Positions 12,511-27,760 of a stretch of 38,876 nt of DNA are shown piece after piece. The position numbers and the translations under genes are program-made. The stretch's first letter is position 1, and each line of letters opens with the position of its first letter. The DNA lies in assembly GCA_902766835.1 (NCBI GenBank), contig CACXFC010000201.1, forward strand, positions 1 through 38,876, read 5' to 3'. Below the pieces are notes generated by a model that was not told the DNA's origin, made no database searches, and worked only from the letters and a program-made list of their open reading frames with translations. The stretch comes from an uncultured Coriobacteriaceae bacterium. GTDB lineage: Bacteria > Actinomycetota > Coriobacteriia > Coriobacteriales > Atopobiaceae.

Positions 12511-13845
12511 ATGGCAGAAGGAAAGGGACAGGCGTTCCTGGACAAGTTCGCCGAGATCTCGGGAAGGATCGGCTCTGAGGTGCACCTGCGCTCGCTGCGC
12601 GACGCCTTTGCAACCATCATGCCGCTCTACATCCTGGCAGGCATCGCAGTACTCATCAACAACGTTGTGTTCCCGCTGTTCTTGGCGGACGACGCACTGG
12701 CCAACGCCCAGTACTGGGGCAACGCGCTTACGCAGGGCACGCTGAGCGTCTCGGCTATCCTGCTGTGCGCCGTGGTTGGCTATCGTCACGCTCACAATAT
12801 GCGCTACGAGGGCGACATCGCCTGCGCCGTGGTTGCGCTCGCCTCGCTCTTCGTGACGCTGCCGCAGAGCGTTGAGGTGGCCATCGAGGGCACCGAGACC
12901 ACCCAGCTCACGGGCGGCCTCTTCTCCACGGGCAACACCGGCACCAGCGGCCTGTTTGCGGCCATCATCATCGGCCTTCTGGCCACCGAGCTGTTCATCA
13001 AGCTGGCGCGCGTCGAGAAGCTCAAGATCAACCTGGGCGAGGGCGTGCCCACCGCCGTTGCAGACTCCTTCAACGTCATGATCCCGATGCTTCTGACCCT
13101 CGGTGTCTTTGGCCTGGTCTCTGCTGTGCTGCACATCTGCTTCAACACCGATGTCTCCACGCTCATCAAGATGTTCGTGCAGGCGCCGCTGCAGAGCCTC
13201 AACTCCAACATCTGGGGCGTCGTGATCATCTACACCTTTGCTAACCTGCTGTTCTGCCTCGGCATCCATCAGAGTGCCATCAGTGGCGTGCTGGCCGAGC
13301 CCATGCTTACCATCCTCATCACTGACAACATGGCAGCCTATGCCTCCGGCGGCTTTGCGGCCATCCAGCCCGACCACTACATGAACATGCAGATCGTCAA
13401 CACCTTTGGCCTCATCGGTGGTTCCGGCTGCACGCTCTGCCTGCTCATTGCCACCTTCCTGTTCTCCAAGAACAAGACCAGCAAGACGGTTGGCTCGCTG
13501 GCCCTGGGCCCTGGCATCTTCAACATCAACGAGCCCGTCATCTATGGCTATCCCATCGTGTACAACCTGCCGCTGATGATCCCGTTCGTGCTGGTTCCCG
13601 ATCTGTTCATGATCATCACCTACTTTGCCACCGTGGCTGGCCTCATCAACCCGTGCGTGGTGATGGTTCCTTGGACGACCCCGGTGTTCCTGAGTGGCTT
13701 CCTTGCCACCGCCGGCGACTTCCGCGCCGTTATCCTGCAGGTGATTCTGGTTACTCTGGGCGTGGCCATCTATCTGCCCTTCATGAAGGTTCATGAGCGC
13801 GTTATGGCCAAGCAGGCTGCCGAGAATGAGCTCGAGGCCGCCTAG
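12511..13845 (+). CDS. PTS lactose/cellobiose-family EIIC permease
   Basis: Membrane-embedded sugar channel of the phosphotransferase system, 444 aa, with about ten hydrophobic segments. Typical family stretches include LRDAFATIMPLYILAGIAV (about 30-48), the NLLFCLGIHQSAISG region near 246-260 and the FNINEPVIYGYPIVYNLPL region near 333-351, which carries the conserved NEP of the sugar site. No EIIA or EIIB gene is next to it, so the transporter needs subunits from elsewhere. The only EIIB-like domain in the window is in the fusion at 19804-21300. It lies 80 bases after the GH1 stop and is probably co-transcribed with it. Confidence 0.93.
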   Translation: MAEGKGQAFLDKFAEISGRIGSEVHLRSLRDAFATIMPLYILAGIAVLINNVVFPLFLADDALANAQYWGNALTQGTLSVSAILLCAVVGYRHAHNMRYEGDIACAVVALASLFVTLPQSVEVAIEGTETTQLTGGLFSTGNTGTSGLFAAIIIGLLATELFIKLARVEKLKINLGEGVPTAVADSFNVMIPMLLTLGVFGLVSAVLHICFNTDVSTLIKMFVQAPLQSLNSNIWGVVIIYTFANLLFCLGIHQSAISGVLAEPMLTILITDNMAAYASGGFAAIQPDHYMNMQIVNTFGLIGGSGCTLCLLIATFLFSKNKTSKTVGSLALGPGIFNINEPVIYGYPIVYNLPLMIPFVLVPDLFMIITYFATVAGLINPCVVMVPWTTPVFLSGFLATAGDFRAVILQVILVTLGVAIYLPFMKVHERVMAKQAAENELEAA

Positions 13846-18943: not shown

Positions 18944-19306
18944 ATGTCGGCGTCTACGGCAATGGCGCAGGTCAATATCCGTATGCAGCGCAGCCTCAAG
19001 GAACGCGGCGATGCAACGCTTGCCCTTGTGGGCAGCTCGCCTGCGGCAATCATCCGCCAGCTCTGGCAGGCGCTGGCAGAGGGCGGCGATGCGTACCAAC
19101 GTATCATGCAGGTGCTAACCAAGGCCGATGTGGCCGAGGCGTCACCTGCTACAGACTCTTCGTTGTGCCGGGCATCGTCCCTCTTCGAAGAGTTGGGCGC
19201 CTCTCTAGGTCTCGATCCTGCAAGCTTTACCCCCGATATCCGCCCAACCTCGGAGGTGCTCGAAGACATCGAGTGGGAACTGCTCGAGGAGCGGGGGCTC
19301 GCATGA
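18944..19306 (+). CDS. RelB/DinJ-family antitoxin
   Basis: Probable antitoxin, 120 aa. Residues 8-50 have the ribbon-helix-helix pattern of RelB/DinJ proteins: a short strand (QVNIRM), then two helices with the family-typical SPAAIIRQLW. The C-terminal 50 residues are acidic and rich in Glu/Asp, as expected for a toxin-binding tail. It overlaps the PIN-toxin gene by four bases (ATGA). An alternative start at Met7 (18962) is possible, but the AAGAAGGGA site fits 18944. It likely represses its own promoter through the TAGCAA repeats. Confidence 0.82.
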   Translation: MSASTAMAQVNIRMQRSLKERGDATLALVGSSPAAIIRQLWQALAEGGDAYQRIMQVLTKADVAEASPATDSSLCRASSLFEELGASLGLDPASFTPDIRPTSEVLEDIEWELLEERGLA

Positions 19307-19797
19307 TTGAGCGCACCAAGATAATCATGGTCGACACGAATGTCTGGGTTGACCTCTACGTTCCCGGAAGGCCTTTGCGTGAGGCCTCGATCTCTTTCTT
19401 CGAGGCCGCCCAGCGGGATGATATAGAGCTGACCTTTACGGTGGATATCGCCCGCGCAGTGTTTCGCATCGTATCGCATGAGGCGAAGCGTTGGGTGCGT
19501 CAGGACAAGGGCTCGCTGTCCGAAGCCTATGCAAAGGCCATATCCTCGCACGCGTGGGACTTCATGGAGAGCATGCAAGAGCAAGCGACGGCGGTTGGCT
19601 CGGCAACGGCAGACCTCTGGTTGGCCAGCAAGCTGTGTGACCAGCATGCTGAGATCGAGGACAACCTCATCGTGGCAGCATGCATGCGCATCAAGGCAGA
19701 CTATCTGGTAACCAATGACGAGAAGCTTCTGCGTCACGCGCCTGTGGCCGCGGTAACGCCGACAAAGATGGTGCAGCTGCTTGGCGTGATGTCGTAG
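19303..19797 (+). CDS. PIN-domain toxin (VapC-like ribonuclease)
   Basis: Probable endoribonuclease toxin, 164 aa. Acidic metal-binding residues of the PIN domain are visible: Asp11 (IMVDTNVWVDL), Asp120 (IEDNLIVAACMRI) and Asp139 (YLVTNDEKLL). A fourth, in the 48-60 region, is less certain. The start ATG overlaps the antitoxin stop. The family's members cut tRNA or rRNA at specific sites; the target here cannot be told. It ends 6 bases before the convergent stop of the EIIB-ROK fusion. PIN toxins usually pair with VapB or AbrB antitoxins rather than RelB/DinJ. Confidence 0.88.
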   Translation: MIERTKIIMVDTNVWVDLYVPGRPLREASISFFEAAQRDDIELTFTVDIARAVFRIVSHEAKRWVRQDKGSLSEAYAKAISSHAWDFMESMQEQATAVGSATADLWLASKLCDQHAEIEDNLIVAACMRIKADYLVTNDEKLLRHAPVAAVTPTKMVQLLGVMS

Positions 19798-19803
19798 CCT
19801 GTT

Positions 19804-21300
19804 CTATGCGATGCCCAGCGAGCGGTAGTTGGGGTCGCGCAGCTTCTGCAGGCAGAGGGCCATCTCACCCAAATACACGCGCTCGACGTAGTCGTCCACC
19901 ACAAACAGCGGGGGAATGAGCTCTTCAGGCAGGCCAAGCAGGGGTCCGCCCGTGGGGGTCGTGAGTCGGGAGCTGCCGGGGTTGTTAGCGTCACTGGCCA
20001 GCGCCTGATGCAGCTTGTCCATGTCGTCGACCGTGTCTACCGCAAAGTAGAAGGCCTCGGGAGAGATGAGCGAGATGCCCGTGAGCGCCACGTTGCGTGC
20101 AATCTGGAACATGCCCTCCTCGTTCCAGAGCATCTCCTCGTAGTTTGGGTTGTATGCGAACAGGCTCTCGTAATACTTGGGCTCGCCGGCAAGGTTGTGG
20201 CGCCCCTTCAGCAGGATTCCGTCGATGACGGTGCCCAAGCCGCCGGCTATGTGGCCAAACTCGTGACGGTAGAACATCACGCTCTCGTACTTGTCCTGCC
20301 CCACGTAGCAGCCCACGGCAGCCGCGTTGCAGTTGTTGTCCACCGAGGTCTTGATGCCAAAGCGCTTGTGGATGTGGTTGCCCAGGTCGTAGTCGCCATC
20401 CACCACGCCGGGCAGGCTGACGGTGCCGTGGTAGGCAACGCCAGGTACGGCAATGCCGATGATGTCGAGGTCGCGGACGCTCACGCCGCGCCCACCCATG
20501 GTCTCGAGCAGGTCTTCGACGTCGCGGTAGTCGAGCTTGGGCTTGCGCACCGAGCCTTGTGTGGTGACCCGCCCGTGGTCGTAGACGCGATACCCAAGCC
20601 GCGAATAGGTGCGCATGGTAAAGAGCGTGATGATGAGGATGCGCTTGTCATTGGAGAGGTCGCGCGCCACGCGAGTGGTCTCGTGATGGCCTTCGGTAGG
20701 AGCATGGAGGTCGCGCATGGCATGCATGAGCAGCTGCATGGCCCCGGCCGCGTCGTAGCTGCCGAAGATCTTGCCCGGTATCTCGAACACCAGCGCATTG
20801 GGATGGGCTTCAATCATCTGTCGGCGCATGTGGCTGGCCTGTGGGGCAAGCATGACGGCGGCATAGTTGCCACCCTCGCCCAAGGCGCGGTCGACCGACA
20901 TGGCCGTGAAGTCGTAGTCAAGCGAGAGGGTCTGGGCAATCTCGCCCATCTTGGCGGCAAAGAGGCTGGTGGTAAGGGCCGAGGTGCAGCAGAGCAGCAC
21001 ATGGGTCGTGGTGTGGCTTGCCTCATCCTCAAGGGCCTCTACCATCTCGCCAAAGAGCTCCATCGCGCGGCTGAGGTCGTCGAGCAGAACATGCAGGTAG
21101 AAGATGGCCTCGCCGTCAGAGGTACGCATTACCTGGTATTCGGCAATCTCGAGGTCGTCTTGGTAGGGGTAGAAGTTGACCTCGGCCACGGCAAGGCCAA
21201 TGTCGATGCGTATGCGTTGGTCGCTGAGGGCAACGGGTGCCACATCATGAACGCGCTGCTTACATATCCAGGCGCGGAAGATGTCTCCGTTTTGACTCAC
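19804..21300 (-). CDS. PTS EIIB-like domain fused to a ROK-like pseudokinase
   Basis: A 498-aa multidomain protein. Residues 1-97 are unassigned. Residues 98-195 match a lactose/cellobiose EIIB: Cys105 in LLCCTSALTTSLF aligns with the phosphorylated Cys of the family (C-SAGMSTSLL), and VMLAPQASHM aligns with the usual VLLGPQVRYM. From about 218 a ROK-like domain follows. It keeps VIDGILLKGRHNLAGE but has ITLFTMRTYSRLG where DIGGT should be, Asn323 where the catalytic Asp belongs (DNNCNAAA instead of NDANAAA), and no zinc motif. It has no DNA-binding helix-turn-helix. I chose the GTG at 21300 because of AGGAG six bases upstream. A phosphorylation-controlled sugar sensor is my inference. Confidence 0.8.
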   Translation of the reverse strand: MSQNGDIFRAWICKQRVHDVAPVALSDQRIRIDIGLAVAEVNFYPYQDDLEIAEYQVMRTSDGEAIFYLHVLLDDLSRAMELFGEMVEALEDEASHTTTHVLLCCTSALTTSLFAAKMGEIAQTLSLDYDFTAMSVDRALGEGGNYAAVMLAPQASHMRRQMIEAHPNALVFEIPGKIFGSYDAAGAMQLLMHAMRDLHAPTEGHHETTRVARDLSNDKRILIITLFTMRTYSRLGYRVYDHGRVTTQGSVRKPKLDYRDVEDLLETMGGRGVSVRDLDIIGIAVPGVAYHGTVSLPGVVDGDYDLGNHIHKRFGIKTSVDNNCNAAAVGCYVGQDKYESVMFYRHEFGHIAGGLGTVIDGILLKGRHNLAGEPKYYESLFAYNPNYEEMLWNEEGMFQIARNVALTGISLISPEAFYFAVDTVDDMDKLHQALASDANNPGSSRLTTPTGGPLLGLPEELIPPLFVVDDYVERVYLGEMALCLQKLRDPNYRSLGIA

Positions 21301-21525: not shown

Positions 21526-22227
21526 TTACCAGGCCTGTGCGTGGAGCTTGGCACGCATGCGGTCGGCCACTTCCATCTGCCGCTCTGGCGAGGTCTTGTA
21601 CGCGCCGTCTGCCGTGGTGATGGCGCGGCCGACCATGACAATCTCGGGCTTGAACTTGAGCACCTCATCGAGGTTCTTCTCGTTGATGCCGGTGCCAAGT
21701 GCGAGCCCTGCATGGATGAGGTTGCGCTTGACGGCGGCGGCACGCTCGAGGGGCCTGAGCTGGAAGATGGAGCCGTGCTGAGGCTTCTCGAGGTCGTACT
21801 CGTGCTCCATGAGGAAGCCCGTCGAAACGTGGCAGTAGCGAACACCGAGCTTGTCGACCTCTGCGGTGCGTCGTCCCAGGTTACGCACGCCGTCAAGGTC
21901 ACACAGGATGGCGCCACCATACTCGTGCGCATGACGGACCATCTGCTGGATGACTTCGTTGGGGGCGTAGGCAAGCACGGTGACGATGGAGGCGCCAGCT
22001 TCGAAGCAGCGGCGCGTGACACCCGAGCCGCCATGGAAGACCTTGGCGTCGACGCAGATTTTGAGGTCGGGGTGCGCCTCGTGAATCTCCTTTACCACAT
22101 CGAGGCCAAACGTAATGAGTTCGGGATAACCAACCTCAAAGATGTCGACGTGATCGGCCATGCGGTCTGCCATGCGGATGAGCTCGTGGCGCTTGCCGTG
22201 GTCGAGGGTTAGCTGAAGTTGAGCCAT
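21526..22227 (-). CDS. HUMPS/KGPDC-like sugar-phosphate lyase
   Basis: 233-aa TIM-barrel protein of the orotidine-5'-phosphate decarboxylase superfamily, closest in layout to 3-hexulose-6-phosphate synthase and 3-keto-L-gulonate-6-phosphate decarboxylase. Visible family residues are Asp9 (LTLDHG), Glu31 (IFEVGYPE) and the DXK motif at Asp60-Ala-Lys62. The phosphate-binding end is LGTGINEKN ... VMVGRAIT. In the family DXKXXD motif the last Asp is replaced: DAKVFH, with His65. This suggests a changed reaction. It follows an MFS transporter gene by 44 bases, so it probably acts on the imported sugar after phosphorylation. Confidence 0.8.
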   Translation of the reverse strand: MAQLQLTLDHGKRHELIRMADRMADHVDIFEVGYPELITFGLDVVKEIHEAHPDLKICVDAKVFHGGSGVTRRCFEAGASIVTVLAYAPNEVIQQMVRHAHEYGGAILCDLDGVRNLGRRTAEVDKLGVRYCHVSTGFLMEHEYDLEKPQHGSIFQLRPLERAAAVKRNLIHAGLALGTGINEKNLDEVLKFKPEIVMVGRAITTADGAYKTSPERQMEVADRMRAKLHAQAW

Positions 22228-22271: not shown

Positions 22272-23465
22272 CTAGCTGAAGAGCTTCTTGTCGTTGCCCG
22301 AGGGCACCCGGAAGAAGACGACACCTACCAAGCCCACAACGATCAGGGCGAGCAGGAAGAGGAACATGGCAGGATAACCGGCAGCGTCGGCAATGCGCCC
22401 ACCGATATTGTTGGAGATGATGGTGCCAAAGCTTTGGCAGGTCTTGACCAAGGCGAGGCCGGCAATCTGTTGTCGCGCGTCGACGATGGTGTTTACCACC
22501 TTCATGTTGGTCATGATGTTGATGATTGCAGGCGGATGGCGGCCGAGGAACGTGGCCACGATGACCAGAGGCAGCGGGAGGTTAAGCCCGTAGACGAGCA
22601 TTTCCACTACCACGAGTACGAAGATGCCCATGAGCAGGGTCTTGTTGGCGATCTTGTCCATGAACTTGGACGAGAAGAGCAGAAGGGGAATCTCGAGCAG
22701 GGTTGCCACGGCAAGGATGGTCGAGGCGGTTGAGGCCTCAAGCCCCTTGCTGGTAAGAAATGCCGGGCAGAACGAGTACGCCGCGCCGGTGACCGCAGAG
22801 AACAGAATCTGGAGCACGAGATAGTAGAGGAACTTCTTGTTGGTGAGCAGGTCTTTGGTGGAAACCGGCGGGGCTGCGCCGTCCTCTTCGTCCTCGATGT
22901 TGGCCGCCTCGGTCTCGGCCAGGCGGGGGTTGGTTCCCCAGAAGCCAAAGGTGGCAATGAGCATGGCGATGATGACGCCCACATACGGGGCGGCAGGCGA
23001 GATGGCGTCGTAGATGATGCCGGTGAGCTGCGTGCCCACGGCAAAGCCGATGGAGCCCCACACGCGGATGGATCCGTAGCTGTAGGGGCTTGAGGTGGCC
23101 ATACGCTCGATGGTGGGGTTGACACCATTCATGAGCAGGTTCATGAGGGCGTAGGCACCGACGATGATGGTGAAGTTGGGGGCGACCACAAACAGGGCGG
23201 CCGAGACGCACGTTGCGGCGAACATGACCATGTTGACCGGCCGCATGCCGTACTTGTCGGTGAGTGAGCCAATGATGGGCTGGGTGACCATGTTGGCCAG
23301 CGCCGCAACAGAGATGCACAGCGAAACCTGACTCGCCGAGTAGCCCTTGCCGATGAGGTACACCGAAATGAGTGCACTGAAGAAGGCAAAGGCAAGATCG
23401 TAGAAGAAGAACAGGATGACGTAGGCGGCATAGCTGTTGGTATATTTGGCTAGCAATCGTTCCAT
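22272..23465 (-). CDS. MFS transporter, sugar or nucleoside symporter type
   Basis: 397-aa permease with 12 predicted hydrophobic segments. The loop 2-3 motif is GSLTDKYGMRPV (about 66-77). The segment YGSIRVWGSIGFAVG (about 129-143) is characteristic of the oligosaccharide/nucleoside:H+ symporter branch of the major facilitator superfamily. A hydrophilic acidic loop (about 183-200) separates the two halves. GGGAGGG precedes the ATG. It heads the minus-strand group with the HUMPS-like lyase. The palindrome CAACGTTG at 23485-23492, in the leader, could be a LacI-type half-operator, but this is weak. Confidence 0.88.
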   Translation of the reverse strand: MERLLAKYTNSYAAYVILFFFYDLAFAFFSALISVYLIGKGYSASQVSLCISVAALANMVTQPIIGSLTDKYGMRPVNMVMFAATCVSAALFVVAPNFTIIVGAYALMNLLMNGVNPTIERMATSSPYSYGSIRVWGSIGFAVGTQLTGIIYDAISPAAPYVGVIIAMLIATFGFWGTNPRLAETEAANIEDEEDGAAPPVSTKDLLTNKKFLYYLVLQILFSAVTGAAYSFCPAFLTSKGLEASTASTILAVATLLEIPLLLFSSKFMDKIANKTLLMGIFVLVVVEMLVYGLNLPLPLVIVATFLGRHPPAIINIMTNMKVVNTIVDARQQIAGLALVKTCQSFGTIISNNIGGRIADAAGYPAMFLFLLALIVVGLVGVVFFRVPSGNDKKLFS

Positions 23466-23793: not shown

Positions 23794-24627
23794 TTAGATA
23801 AGGCCCAGGTGCTTGAAGGCGTTGTAGAGGCCATCGTTGTCGACGTCGTCGGTAATGTAGTCGGCAGCCTCCTTGATCTCCTTGCCGCCGTTGCCCATGG
23901 CAACGTTGTAAGCGCAGAGCTCGAACATGGAGAGGTCGATCTTGGCATCGCCGAAGGAGATGGTGTCGGCCTGGTCGGCGCCCAGGTGCTTAAGCAGCAC
24001 CTCGATGGCATGCTTCTTGGTGATGCCCTTGGGGCCAAGGTCACCAAACAGTGCCTGCTCGTCCTTGCCGCCCCAGGTGTTGCACTCCATGTCGGGGAAC
24101 TCGACGATGCTGTCCAGGTGGTCCTGATAGCTGGACAGAATGAAGCTCACCTTGTTGACGTCATCGCGGTAGAGGTCGTCGGTGCGGATCATCGAGTTGA
24201 CGAAGCCGTCGGCCTTGGCCTGGGCGGTTGCCTCGTCGGCACCCTTGCCCATGGCGTACTTGACCATGGTGGCCGGAGCCTGGACCTCGAACCAGTGGTT
24301 GATGTACATGCCGCTGTTGGCCTCGAGGTAGAAGCCCAGCTCGCGACCGTTGCACCAGTCGACGATGTGCTTGACCTGATCAACCGTGAGGGCCTGGTGC
24401 ATGACAACCTGGCCTGCGTCCTCCACGTACCCGCCGTTGGCACCGATCATGCCATCCAGCTCGGGAAGGTCACGCTGCTCGATCTCGGCCTTGGAGCAGC
24501 CAGTGCAGATATAGACCTTGTGGCCGTTGGCGCGTGCCAGCTCAACAGCCTTCTTGGCGGAATCGGGACAAACCGTCTCATAGTTGATGAGCGTTCCGTC
24601 CACGTCCAGAAAAACGATCTTGCCCAT
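23794..24627 (-). CDS. HAD-superfamily (Cof/IIB-type) phosphatase
   Basis: Probable sugar-phosphate phosphatase, 277 aa, cytoplasmic. Motif I is FLDVDGTL with Asp8 as nucleophile and Asp10 as acid/base. Motif II is YICTGCS near residue 40. The C-terminal motif IV is SFGDAKIDLSMF (about 226-237), followed by AMGNGGKEIKEAADYIT, all typical of Cof-type HAD proteins with a C2 cap. The ATG at 24627 has GGAGGAGAGG upstream; an upstream TTG would put this site inside the gene. It is divergent from the SpoIIE-type gene. Confidence 0.93.
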   Translation of the reverse strand: MGKIVFLDVDGTLINYETVCPDSAKKAVELARANGHKVYICTGCSKAEIEQRDLPELDGMIGANGGYVEDAGQVVMHQALTVDQVKHIVDWCNGRELGFYLEANSGMYINHWFEVQAPATMVKYAMGKGADEATAQAKADGFVNSMIRTDDLYRDDVNKVSFILSSYQDHLDSIVEFPDMECNTWGGKDEQALFGDLGPKGITKKHAIEVLLKHLGADQADTISFGDAKIDLSMFELCAYNVAMGNGGKEIKEAADYITDDVDNDGLYNAFKHLGLI

Positions 24628-24799: not shown

Positions 24800-27424
24800 A
24801 TGTCTGATACGACCACAGAGCATTCCATGCCACGCGTGCACCCGCTGCGATGGCACGGGATCATGGCGTCGGAAACCTTGGCGGCCCAAAGGGCTGGCGT
24901 CATCATGTTCAGCATCATGTGTGTTGCCATGGTGGCCATGCAGCTCAACTATCTGGTGGTGGGCAATGCGCACATGATTGTGGTGCTTGCGCCCATGGCG
25001 CTGTGCGCGCTGTTGAACGGCACCGTCTCCGCCTTTGCCATAGGGGCAACCGCAGGATTGGCAGAGCTGATTCATGCCACATACCTGCCGCTTGACTACT
25101 ACGAGAAGTACTTTACGGTGCCTACCAATTCCGTCGTCCTCTTTGCGCTGTCAGGACTTGTGCTGGGAGTGCTCTTCTGTCTTTGGGACTACCGGTTCAA
25201 AGACACGCGAGGATGGCGCCGCAGCGTGGCCTTGGCAGCGTGTTGTGCGCTCGGCTCGGCTTTCTTCACGGTATTCTTTCACTGGAGCGCCTACCTCATC
25301 AATTCCTTCTTGGACATAGAGCTTCCTCAGGACCTGCTCACTCAGCTCACCGGTTCGCATGAGATATTCTCCCAATGGTTGGCTGACTTTGGGCTCATGG
25401 CGATCGTAACGCTTGGAGCCGACCAACTCCTTCTACGCTATAGGGCCTCGAAAAGCGAGAGGACCATCCGCACGACCTTCCAGGGATGGTTGGCCGTAGT
25501 GATGACCGTGGCCTACATGGTAAGTGGAGCCATAGGCTACACGAGCATCTCAGGGGCCTGTCTGCAAGAGGCTGACCGGAACATGCTGGGAAGGCTCGAG
25601 TATCTTGCCGGGCAGCTGTCAGAACGCGATAAGATGCTCGATGGCATAGCGCGTCGCACCAAGATCTTGCCGACCATTTTGGAAGAAGTGCATGCTTCCT
25701 CCATGGGTGGTGTGGCTACGGGCATCGATTTTGGCAGCGAGAACCTGAGCATCATCGCCGAGGACGGGGTGATTGTCTCTTCGAGCGAGCCGTCCTATGT
25801 AGGCAGGAGCTTTGAGGACGTCGTAGGCGCAGGCTTGCTGGGTGGGTTTAGCGAGGACCTCTATGATGCCAAGCGGGCAAGCGAATGGGATATGGGCGGC
25901 GGCCATCTTTCCTACATGCGTGCCTCCGAGCTTGGCTATGCGCGCCTGAGCCGTTCCGGAACCTACCAGCTTATGGTGGCGATGCCTTCCACCGAGGTCT
26001 TCCGCTATCGCGGCATTGCCATGGCGGCCGTTTCGGTGGCGTTCCTCGTGGTGTTCATAGCCGTCTATGTGCAGGCGGCGCAATTGCTTCAGAACGTGGT
26101 GGTACGCGGCTTCGAACAGACTAACGCGACGCTTTCGCTGATCACCAAAGGCGATCTCTCGCAAGAGGTTGACGTGCACGACACCGTCGAGTTCACCAAC
26201 CTCTCCGGTGGCATCAATGCCACCGTGCATGCCCTGCGCGACTCTATCGCCGAGGCCGAGACGCGCATCGACCGCGAGCTCAAGACGGCCAAGGCCATTC
26301 AGGCCAGCGCGCTTCCGCAAACCTTCCCGCCCTTCCCCGAGATCGACCGCTTTGACATCTACGCATCGATGAATCCCGCGAAGGACGTGGGTGGCGACTT
26401 CTACGACTTCTTCCTCATTGACGACCACACGCTGGGCTTTGTGATTGCCGACGTGAGCGGCAAGGGAATTCCGGCCGCCCTGTTCATGATGGCCGCAAAG
26501 ACCGAGATAGGCAATTACATGCTGAGTGGCATCGACCTTGCGCAGGCCATTCAGTCGGCAAACTATCACCTGTGCCAGAGCAACGATGCGGGCATGTTCG
26601 TGACGGTTTGGGCGGCGACGCTCGACTTTGTCACCGGCGAGCTCACCTTCGTGAATGCTGGGCACAATCCTCCGGCGCTGCGCCACGAGGGGGCCTGGAG
26701 CCTGCTTACCGACCGCAGCGGATTGATCCTAGGGACCTTTGAGACGGCAAAATACCGCTCGCACAGCATTACGCTGACACCCAACGACCAGCTTGTGCTT
26801 TACACTGATGGGGTAACCGAGGCATTCTCTGCGCAGGACGAGCAGTATGGCGAGGACAGGCTGATGGCTTTCTTGAACTCACATGCCCACAATCATCCGC
26901 ACGCGCTGGTTGATGGCTTGCGCTCAGACGTTTCCAGATGGGCGCAGGACACCGAGCAGTCCGATGACATAACGCTGCTCTCGCTTGAGTATGGCGTTGC
27001 GCCCGAGGTTTCCGGAACCATCACGGTACCCGCCACGATCGAGAACCTCAATGGCGTCATGAGCCTCATTCACGCAGAGCTGGCACGCAGGCTGTGCCCC
27101 ATCTCGGTGCAGAACCAGATAGACGTGGCGCTCGAGGAGCTCTTCGTCAATGTCTGCCGGTACGCCTATGCCAACGAGCCCGAGGTGGGAAACGTGCGCG
27201 TCGACTACGTGTACAACGCCTCGCCCAATGCCCTGACGGTTCAGCTGACCGACCAGGGCGTGCCCTTCGACCCGGTTGAGGCCTCCGACCCGATGCGCGC
27301 GTTCTCGGTCGAGGATGCTCAGGTTGGTGGTTTGGGTATATTCATGGCTAAGAAGTCCGTGGACGACCTAAGCTATATGCGCGACGGCGACTCCAACGTC
27401 GTTGCTTTCAGGAAGACATGGTGA
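24800..27424 (+). CDS. Membrane SpoIIE/RsbU-type PP2C phosphatase with RsbW-like ATPase domain
   Basis: 874-aa signalling protein. Residues 28-250 hold about six to seven transmembrane segments. An extracytoplasmic domain (about 255-400) follows, then another transmembrane segment (405-428) and a HAMP-like linker (430-495). The PP2C/SpoIIE domain (about 500-732) has metal-ligand motifs DVGGDFYD (529-536), ADVSGKG (550-556), YTDG (668-671) and SDDIT (721-725). The C-terminal HATPase (about 740-870) has E780/N784, DQGVPFDP (818-825) and GGLGIFMAKK (843-852), as in RsbW/SpoIIAB. The next gene is a STAS protein. One protein thus carries both opposing activities, dephosphorylation and possibly phosphorylation of STAS. 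Confidence 0.92.
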   Translation: MSDTTTEHSMPRVHPLRWHGIMASETLAAQRAGVIMFSIMCVAMVAMQLNYLVVGNAHMIVVLAPMALCALLNGTVSAFAIGATAGLAELIHATYLPLDYYEKYFTVPTNSVVLFALSGLVLGVLFCLWDYRFKDTRGWRRSVALAACCALGSAFFTVFFHWSAYLINSFLDIELPQDLLTQLTGSHEIFSQWLADFGLMAIVTLGADQLLLRYRASKSERTIRTTFQGWLAVVMTVAYMVSGAIGYTSISGACLQEADRNMLGRLEYLAGQLSERDKMLDGIARRTKILPTILEEVHASSMGGVATGIDFGSENLSIIAEDGVIVSSSEPSYVGRSFEDVVGAGLLGGFSEDLYDAKRASEWDMGGGHLSYMRASELGYARLSRSGTYQLMVAMPSTEVFRYRGIAMAAVSVAFLVVFIAVYVQAAQLLQNVVVRGFEQTNATLSLITKGDLSQEVDVHDTVEFTNLSGGINATVHALRDSIAEAETRIDRELKTAKAIQASALPQTFPPFPEIDRFDIYASMNPAKDVGGDFYDFFLIDDHTLGFVIADVSGKGIPAALFMMAAKTEIGNYMLSGIDLAQAIQSANYHLCQSNDAGMFVTVWAATLDFVTGELTFVNAGHNPPALRHEGAWSLLTDRSGLILGTFETAKYRSHSITLTPNDQLVLYTDGVTEAFSAQDEQYGEDRLMAFLNSHAHNHPHALVDGLRSDVSRWAQDTEQSDDITLLSLEYGVAPEVSGTITVPATIENLNGVMSLIHAELARRLCPISVQNQIDVALEELFVNVCRYAYANEPEVGNVRVDYVYNASPNALTVQLTDQGVPFDPVEASDPMRAFSVEDAQVGGLGIFMAKKSVDDLSYMRDGDSNVVAFRKTW

Positions 27425-27457
27425 CGGGGTAACCCGCCTAGAGAGAGGGATAGCTAC

Positions 27458-27760
27458 ATGAACATCACTACCGCAATCGATGGCGATACCGCCAAGATCA
27501 CCGTTGAGGGCAAGCTCTCGGTAACCACAAGCCCCGAGCTTGAGAGCGCCATCATGGGCCTGCCCGAGTCGGTCGTGCACTTCGACTTCGATCTTGCCGG
27601 CCTCGACTACATCTCCAGTGCGGGCCTGCGCGTGCTGGTTACCACGCAGAAGCTGGCCACGCACCGCGGCGGCAGCATGATTCTGCGCCACCCCGTGAGC
27701 GACGTCTACGATGTCTTCGAGATGACCGGCCTGACCGAGATCTTCACCATCGAGCAGTAA
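27458..27760 (+). CDS. STAS-domain anti-sigma-factor antagonist
   Basis: 100-aa cytoplasmic protein of the SpoIIAA/RsbV family. The phosphorylated serine lies in DYISSAGLRVL, Ser53 or Ser54. The rest fits the single STAS fold (VEGKLSVTTSPELESAI at the N-terminal strand-helix). It lies 33 bases after the phosphatase gene with a GAGAGAGGG ribosome site and is clearly co-transcribed. In the known scheme the unphosphorylated form binds an RsbW-type kinase and frees a partner such as a sigma factor. No such target gene is in the window, so the output is unknown. Confidence 0.94.
   Translation: MNITTAIDGDTAKITVEGKLSVTTSPELESAIMGLPESVVHFDFDLAGLDYISSAGLRVLVTTQKLATHRGGSMILRHPVSDVYDVFEMTGLTEIFTIEQ

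Follow-up and report, generated by a model that had tools for sequence, protein, structure and literature searches.

What might a protein do that joins a lactose/cellobiose-type EIIB domain of the PTS to a ROK domain without its phosphate loop? Such a protein is encoded in a 38,876-nucleotide stretch of DNA from an uncultured Coriobacteriaceae bacterium (contig CACXFC010000201.1), the whole of which we call the window. A preliminary description had proposed that both domains lie in one chain, and sequence searches together with an AlphaFold model bear this out: the open reading frame is real and intact, with three folded parts, namely an N-terminal domain, EIIB and ROK. An EIIB–ROK fusion is not described in the open-access literature that we searched, although absence there is no proof. 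On the minus strand, the gene spans 19804..21300 and its stop codon is at 19804. A mechanical list of open reading frames gives its longest form as 507 amino acids from ATG 21327, but we prefer GTG 21300, and thus a likely product of 498 amino acids, because a GGAG stands 6 nt 5' of this codon and most homologues have an ATG start at the aligned position. Residue numbers follow the 498-residue product (507-residue numbering minus 9) unless stated. The model has a mean pLDDT of 78 and a pTM of 0.55, the latter too low for reading contacts between domains.

The middle part (residues 98–200; 20701..21009, minus strand) is a lactose/cellobiose-type EIIB domain, as judged by TIGR00853 (E 8.5e-9 in a sequence search), by a match to ChbB (1h9c; E 7e-6) and by the model, in which residues 107–209 of the 507-residue numbering fit the IIBcel structure 1iib of E. 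coli (Z 17.8; rmsd 1.6 Å over 103 residues). The segment first assigned to EIIB, residues 98–195, therefore does fold as EIIB in the prediction. The preliminary description had also claimed a retained phospho-acceptor and PQ loop, and both are there. Cys105 (20986..20988, minus strand) aligns with the active-site Cys of ChbB/IIBcel, opposite the phospho-Cys of 1h9c and after strand 1, as membership of the lactose/cellobiose EIIBs requires; this Cys and the Ala-Pro-Gln (APQ) loop are invariant in 55 of 55 family members. Pfam PTS_IIB (PF02302) scores the window copy at 13.8 bits, under its cut-off of 23.6 bits, which most of the paralogues tested pass (20–37 bits, the highest at 36.8).

The ROK domain (residues 219–488; 19837..20646, minus strand) was delimited by Pfam, model and alignment. 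It passes the Pfam ROK threshold (PF00480; 25.3 bits, cut-off 22.9), and its model matches ManNAc kinase 6jdc with Z 22.3 and an rmsd of 2.8 Å over 234 residues, and Mlc (3bp8) with Z 18.1. DxGGT and the catalytic Asp, by which ROK sugar kinases are recognized, are both missing from the window protein. The reported loss of DxGGT is confirmed here and in all 25 aligned ROK parts of fusions. Replacement of the catalytic Asp by Asn holds for the window protein (Asn323 by alignment; 20332..20334, minus strand) but is not a family-wide loss: at this position of the NDAN motif, 46 of 55 members have Asn, and the nine with Asp are metallophosphoesterase fusions (described below) and members of one small-genome genus. 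Among the fusions, none of the homologues that we found has DxGGT, although some paralogues do carry the Asp. Because this residue varies, the label 'dead kinase' is best placed on the missing phosphate loop, where it is well founded, and less so on the Asp. The sugar-side motif GRHNLAGE (20182..20205, minus strand) is present as described and keeps Glu373, but the GH that usually follows is lost, with Tyr in place of the GEIGH His (ROK sugar/zinc site). Across the family, N322, the first Asn of NDAN, is kept in 54 of 55 members and E373, the Glu of AGE, in 50 of 55. Sequence comparison supports assigning this part to a non-catalytic ROK fold.

The first 97 residues had been left unassigned as a possible output domain. 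The AlphaFold model gives residues 3–94 (21019..21294, minus strand) a folded domain of their own, made of a helix, five strands and a helix (pLDDT about 78–93 per 10-residue block), but not an obvious output domain. A helix-turn-helix (HTH), which the preliminary description had denied, is ruled out here by the lack of a Pfam HTH match and by the alpha-beta5-alpha model. The domain has no Pfam match above cut-off and no PDB sequence match of note; fold searches were run on whole proteins, and the matches listed were to ROK and EIIB, which filled the list. We rejected the name of the TriTu immunity domain, which one member alone matched, below cut-off (E 1.2e-4). Glu54 (E63 in the 507-residue numbering) is invariant in 55 of 55 members. 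Of 298 genomes of the class, 13 match a profile of the domain; these belong to three genera of the same family, and no match lies outside the family's genomes.

The organism's own genome holds four family members, the other three being 38–44% identical to the window copy, and up to eight copies occur per genome. Within the same family-level group (140 genomes), strong multi-copy matches fall in a handful of genera, and the weak matches in the remaining genera are ordinary EIIB or ROK. EIIBs in other genomes match the family profile with up to 69 bits over the EIIB part only, and full-length matches to the ROK profile, sought in 396 genomes of the phylum, came from the own genome only, the other matches being generic ROK cores. 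As far as sampled, the fusion is restricted to some genera of one Atopobiaceae-level family; related contigs are labelled as metagenome bins of Atopobiaceae/Coriobacteriaceae, from ruminants and deer, and no fusion was found on plasmids or phages. Reading frames are intact at 29–81% identity over several genera, with a mean column identity of about 44%. Some paralogues are decaying or misassembled, among them a fragment that holds the N-terminal domain alone (L108 8952–9290, plus strand; G133) and a frameshifted copy (L073 8371–9803, minus strand; G076). One metagenome contig (CADBRX010000087.1) carries the same stretch twice, inverted (L015 and L016), probably an assembly artefact.

Our strongest evidence for joint action of the EIIB and ROK halves, and for transcription as a possible ancestral output, comes from genes that are not fused. 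In two species of a sister genus (L106 and L107/L212), an NTD-EIIB protein (the N-terminal domain joined to EIIB), a Cof-type HAD phosphatase and an HTH-ROK protein are encoded separately. G034 has them in one same-strand run, with an NTD-EIIB of 207 amino acids from its ATG and a ROK protein of 329 amino acids; G035 has the same set over two contigs, its NTD-EIIB broken by a frameshift. Against the family profile the unfused NTD-EIIB scores 122 bits over positions 8–193 of 195, and other separate EIIBs in the loci scanned, the G035 copy aside, reach at most 56 bits over shorter spans. The unfused ROK scores 82 bits over 40–258 of 260, compared with at most 62 bits over 49–162 for other ROKs. 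The N-terminus of the unfused ROK aligns with the HTH region of Lmo0178, a ROK repressor; its Pfam MarR_2 match lies below cut-off. A tree groups HTH-ROK with the fusions (support 100/98), with the caveat that the HTH-ROK branch is very long. Both halves of this split set are the closest non-fused relatives that we found; the set differs in that its proteins are separate and its ROK half keeps the HTH that the fusions lack.

One paralogue subfamily, of about 737–750 amino acids, places a calcineurin-like metallophosphoesterase ahead of NTD-EIIB-ROK, and this enzyme is, from the sequence, our clearest candidate for an output. It matches PF00149 with 26.6 bits (cut-off 21.5), and the motifs GDIHG, CGDFG, DGNHEN, H-E/D-VP and GHYH are all intact in the 24 loci inspected, some of which are the same gene counted twice. 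We base the assignment on Pfam and motifs because the phosphatase part of the model, built from only four close sequences, is of low confidence. At L061, L111, L120 and L122 the gene lies downstream of genes for MupG (6-phospho-N-acetylmuramidase) and EIIA-lac, and at L120 and L122 a PTS EIIC gene stands further upstream; the EIIC and some of the EIIA and MupG copies were identified from similarity and by eye. The metallophosphoesterase fusion lies, in several species, about 5 kb from the orthologue of the window gene, in the opposite direction. Y_phosphatase3 tyrosine-phosphatase genes flank it on one or both sides at L062, L063, L077 and L115, a third phosphatase type near family members, and another Y_phosphatase3-like gene, recognized by eye and clustering only, lies near a different paralogue (L060 1970–2764, minus strand).

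The window gene itself ends a minus-strand run in the order Cof-type HAD phosphatase (23794..24627), MFS transporter of LacY/sugar-efflux type (22272..23465), HUMPS-family enzyme resembling hexulose-phosphate synthase or KGPDC (21526..22227) and fusion. The MFS and HUMPS genes recur in about ten related loci, the HUMPS gene as a conserved neighbour within the genus, and in another branch, in sister species, the Cof-type HAD gene is directly 5' of the fusion. By majority, 4 of 12 sequence groups have it on the same strand and no more than three genes away (binomial p about 0.0005 to 0.004, the range depending on the background assumed; Hydrolase_3 matches number about 25 in the own genome). We regard this linkage as suggestive only. 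The HUMPS-family enzyme scores 140 bits where the HPS cut-off is 200, and it reads DAKVFH at a motif that is usually DxKxxD in the family, with His in place of the last Asp. Adjoining the fusion gene on its other side is a plus-strand gene for a PIN-domain protein (18944–19797), preceded by one for a 120-residue protein without a Pfam match; both are kept in several relatives and are possibly a toxin–antitoxin pair. Elsewhere in the window, 24800–27760 (plus strand) encodes a single protein with SpoIIE phosphatase and HATPase_c_2 domains, after which comes a small protein of STAS-like (anti-sigma antagonist) type, and 12511–13845 (plus strand) encodes a PTS EIIC that adjoins GH1. No EIIB or EIIA gene lies in the 400-base gap between this EIIC gene and manA, whereas in other genera EIIB and EIIA genes come after the related EIICs. 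The own genome does contain EIIA-lac genes.

We propose, at about even confidence, that the fusion is a regulatory module with two inputs, PTS phosphorylation through EIIB and sugar through ROK, and with phosphatases as likely outputs; the proposal draws on sequence, model and analogy. The protein would be a cytoplasmic regulator, neither a kinase nor a transporter subunit. EIIA-lac~P would phosphorylate Cys105, so that EIIB reports PTS flux, and the ROK domain would bind a sugar or sugar phosphate in its kept pocket; with its phosphate-1 loop gone from the sequence, ROK should be unable to transfer phosphate from ATP. The two states would be read against each other in one chain, as in Mlc/EIIB-Glc. 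The family would descend from, or be sister to, the two-gene set of NTD-EIIB and HTH-ROK repressor, fused members having no DNA-binding domain. Output would probably be control of a phosphatase, exerted in cis in the metallophosphoesterase-fused paralogue and perhaps, more tentatively, in trans on the linked Cof-type HAD enzyme in the window group. The preliminary description had read the protein as just such a sensor of PTS phosphorylation and sugar, and that reading is now partly supported; it is strengthened by the unfused NTD-EIIB/HTH-ROK gene pair and by the EIIA-lac gene in the paralogue operon. Counted against a regulator are the Asp in nine of 55 members, the replaced His of the ROK site, the modest Cof-HAD linkage, the long HTH-ROK branch and the pTM of 0.55. 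The family most likely serves as a sensor of sugar supply that relays its signal, in one sister protein probably to the fused phosphatase.

A regulator could also act elsewhere. The fusion might act by protein contact on a transcription factor (RpiR), an antiterminator (PRD) or some other partner, the phosphatases being bystanders. One genus has an RpiR gene between the HAD gene and the fusion (L109), and the run of genes that precedes the split set at L107 includes a PRD antiterminator, identified by eye, but neither recurs beside the window group, and we judge this version unlikely.

A role in transport is harder still to sustain. The protein could be an ordinary transporter EIIB with a ROK tail that serves an EIIC without an EIIB of its own, for example the one encoded at 12511–13845; the reading is made somewhat more plausible by the fact that neither EIIB nor EIIA lies beside that gene, where its relatives have both. 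That gene is, however, 6 kb away on the opposite strand, other EIIB genes are present in the genome, and a transporter subunit would sit poorly with up to eight family copies per genome. The operon of the metallophosphoesterase-fused paralogue at L120 also seems to hold its own EIIB (by eye, in a disturbed frame). We consider a transporter role improbable.

Very unlikely, in our estimate, is a soluble PTS kinase, in which the phosphate on Cys105 would pass straight to a sugar in the ROK pocket, ROK standing in for the membrane EIIC and no ATP being used. Such an enzyme would be PEP-dependent, its phosphate arriving via EIIA and its sugar through the linked MFS transporter. It would account for the loss of the ATP-loop motif alongside retention of N322 and E373 on the sugar side, for the invariant phospho-Cys, and for the transporter and sugar-phosphate enzyme upstream. 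Against it stand the catalytic base, which is Asn rather than Asp in most members, and the unfused version, which pairs EIIB with an HTH-ROK repressor; we know of no precedent. That the protein is what remains of a decaying regulator, without function today, is scarcely credible, since for all the loss of ROK motifs and the frameshifts in copies such as that of G076, the frames stay intact across several genera at the identities given above and the active-site residues are invariant.

In E. coli, ROK proteins and PTS EIIB interact through a reversible complex. If the dual-input proposal is true, a covalent EIIB–ROK chain with a non-catalytic ROK part, and with a phosphatase in one branch, would be a new form of PTS control over metabolism without transcription. 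A single purified protein would then also allow phosphorylation of EIIB, binding of a ligand by ROK and the output of the phosphatase to be measured together. With lactose/cellobiose-type EIIBs (ChbB/CelA; 1iib, 1h9c) the fusion shares the fold over 103 residues, the phospho-Cys and the PQ loop, yet its EIIB is joined at both ends and the window copy lies outside any EIIC operon. With ROK kinases and repressors (ManNAc kinase 6jdc, Lmo0178 5f7p, the XylR family) it shares the fold and the PG, NxxN and AGE motifs, but it has no DxGGT, mostly Asn for the catalytic Asp, no GH after AGE and no HTH, and so differs from repressors of the Mlc/NagC/XylR type in lacking the N-terminal winged HTH. The nearest precedent in logic is from enteric bacteria, where a ROK protein and a PTS EIIB are likewise read against each other (PDB 3bp8): in E. 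coli the ROK repressor Mlc is sequestered by dephosphorylated EIIB (PMC10100716). Here both partners are in one chain, the EIIB is of the lactose/cellobiose rather than the glucose type, and the HTH is missing. By analogy, the fusion may work like Mlc/EIIB-Glc in its logic, yet it is not a member of that system.
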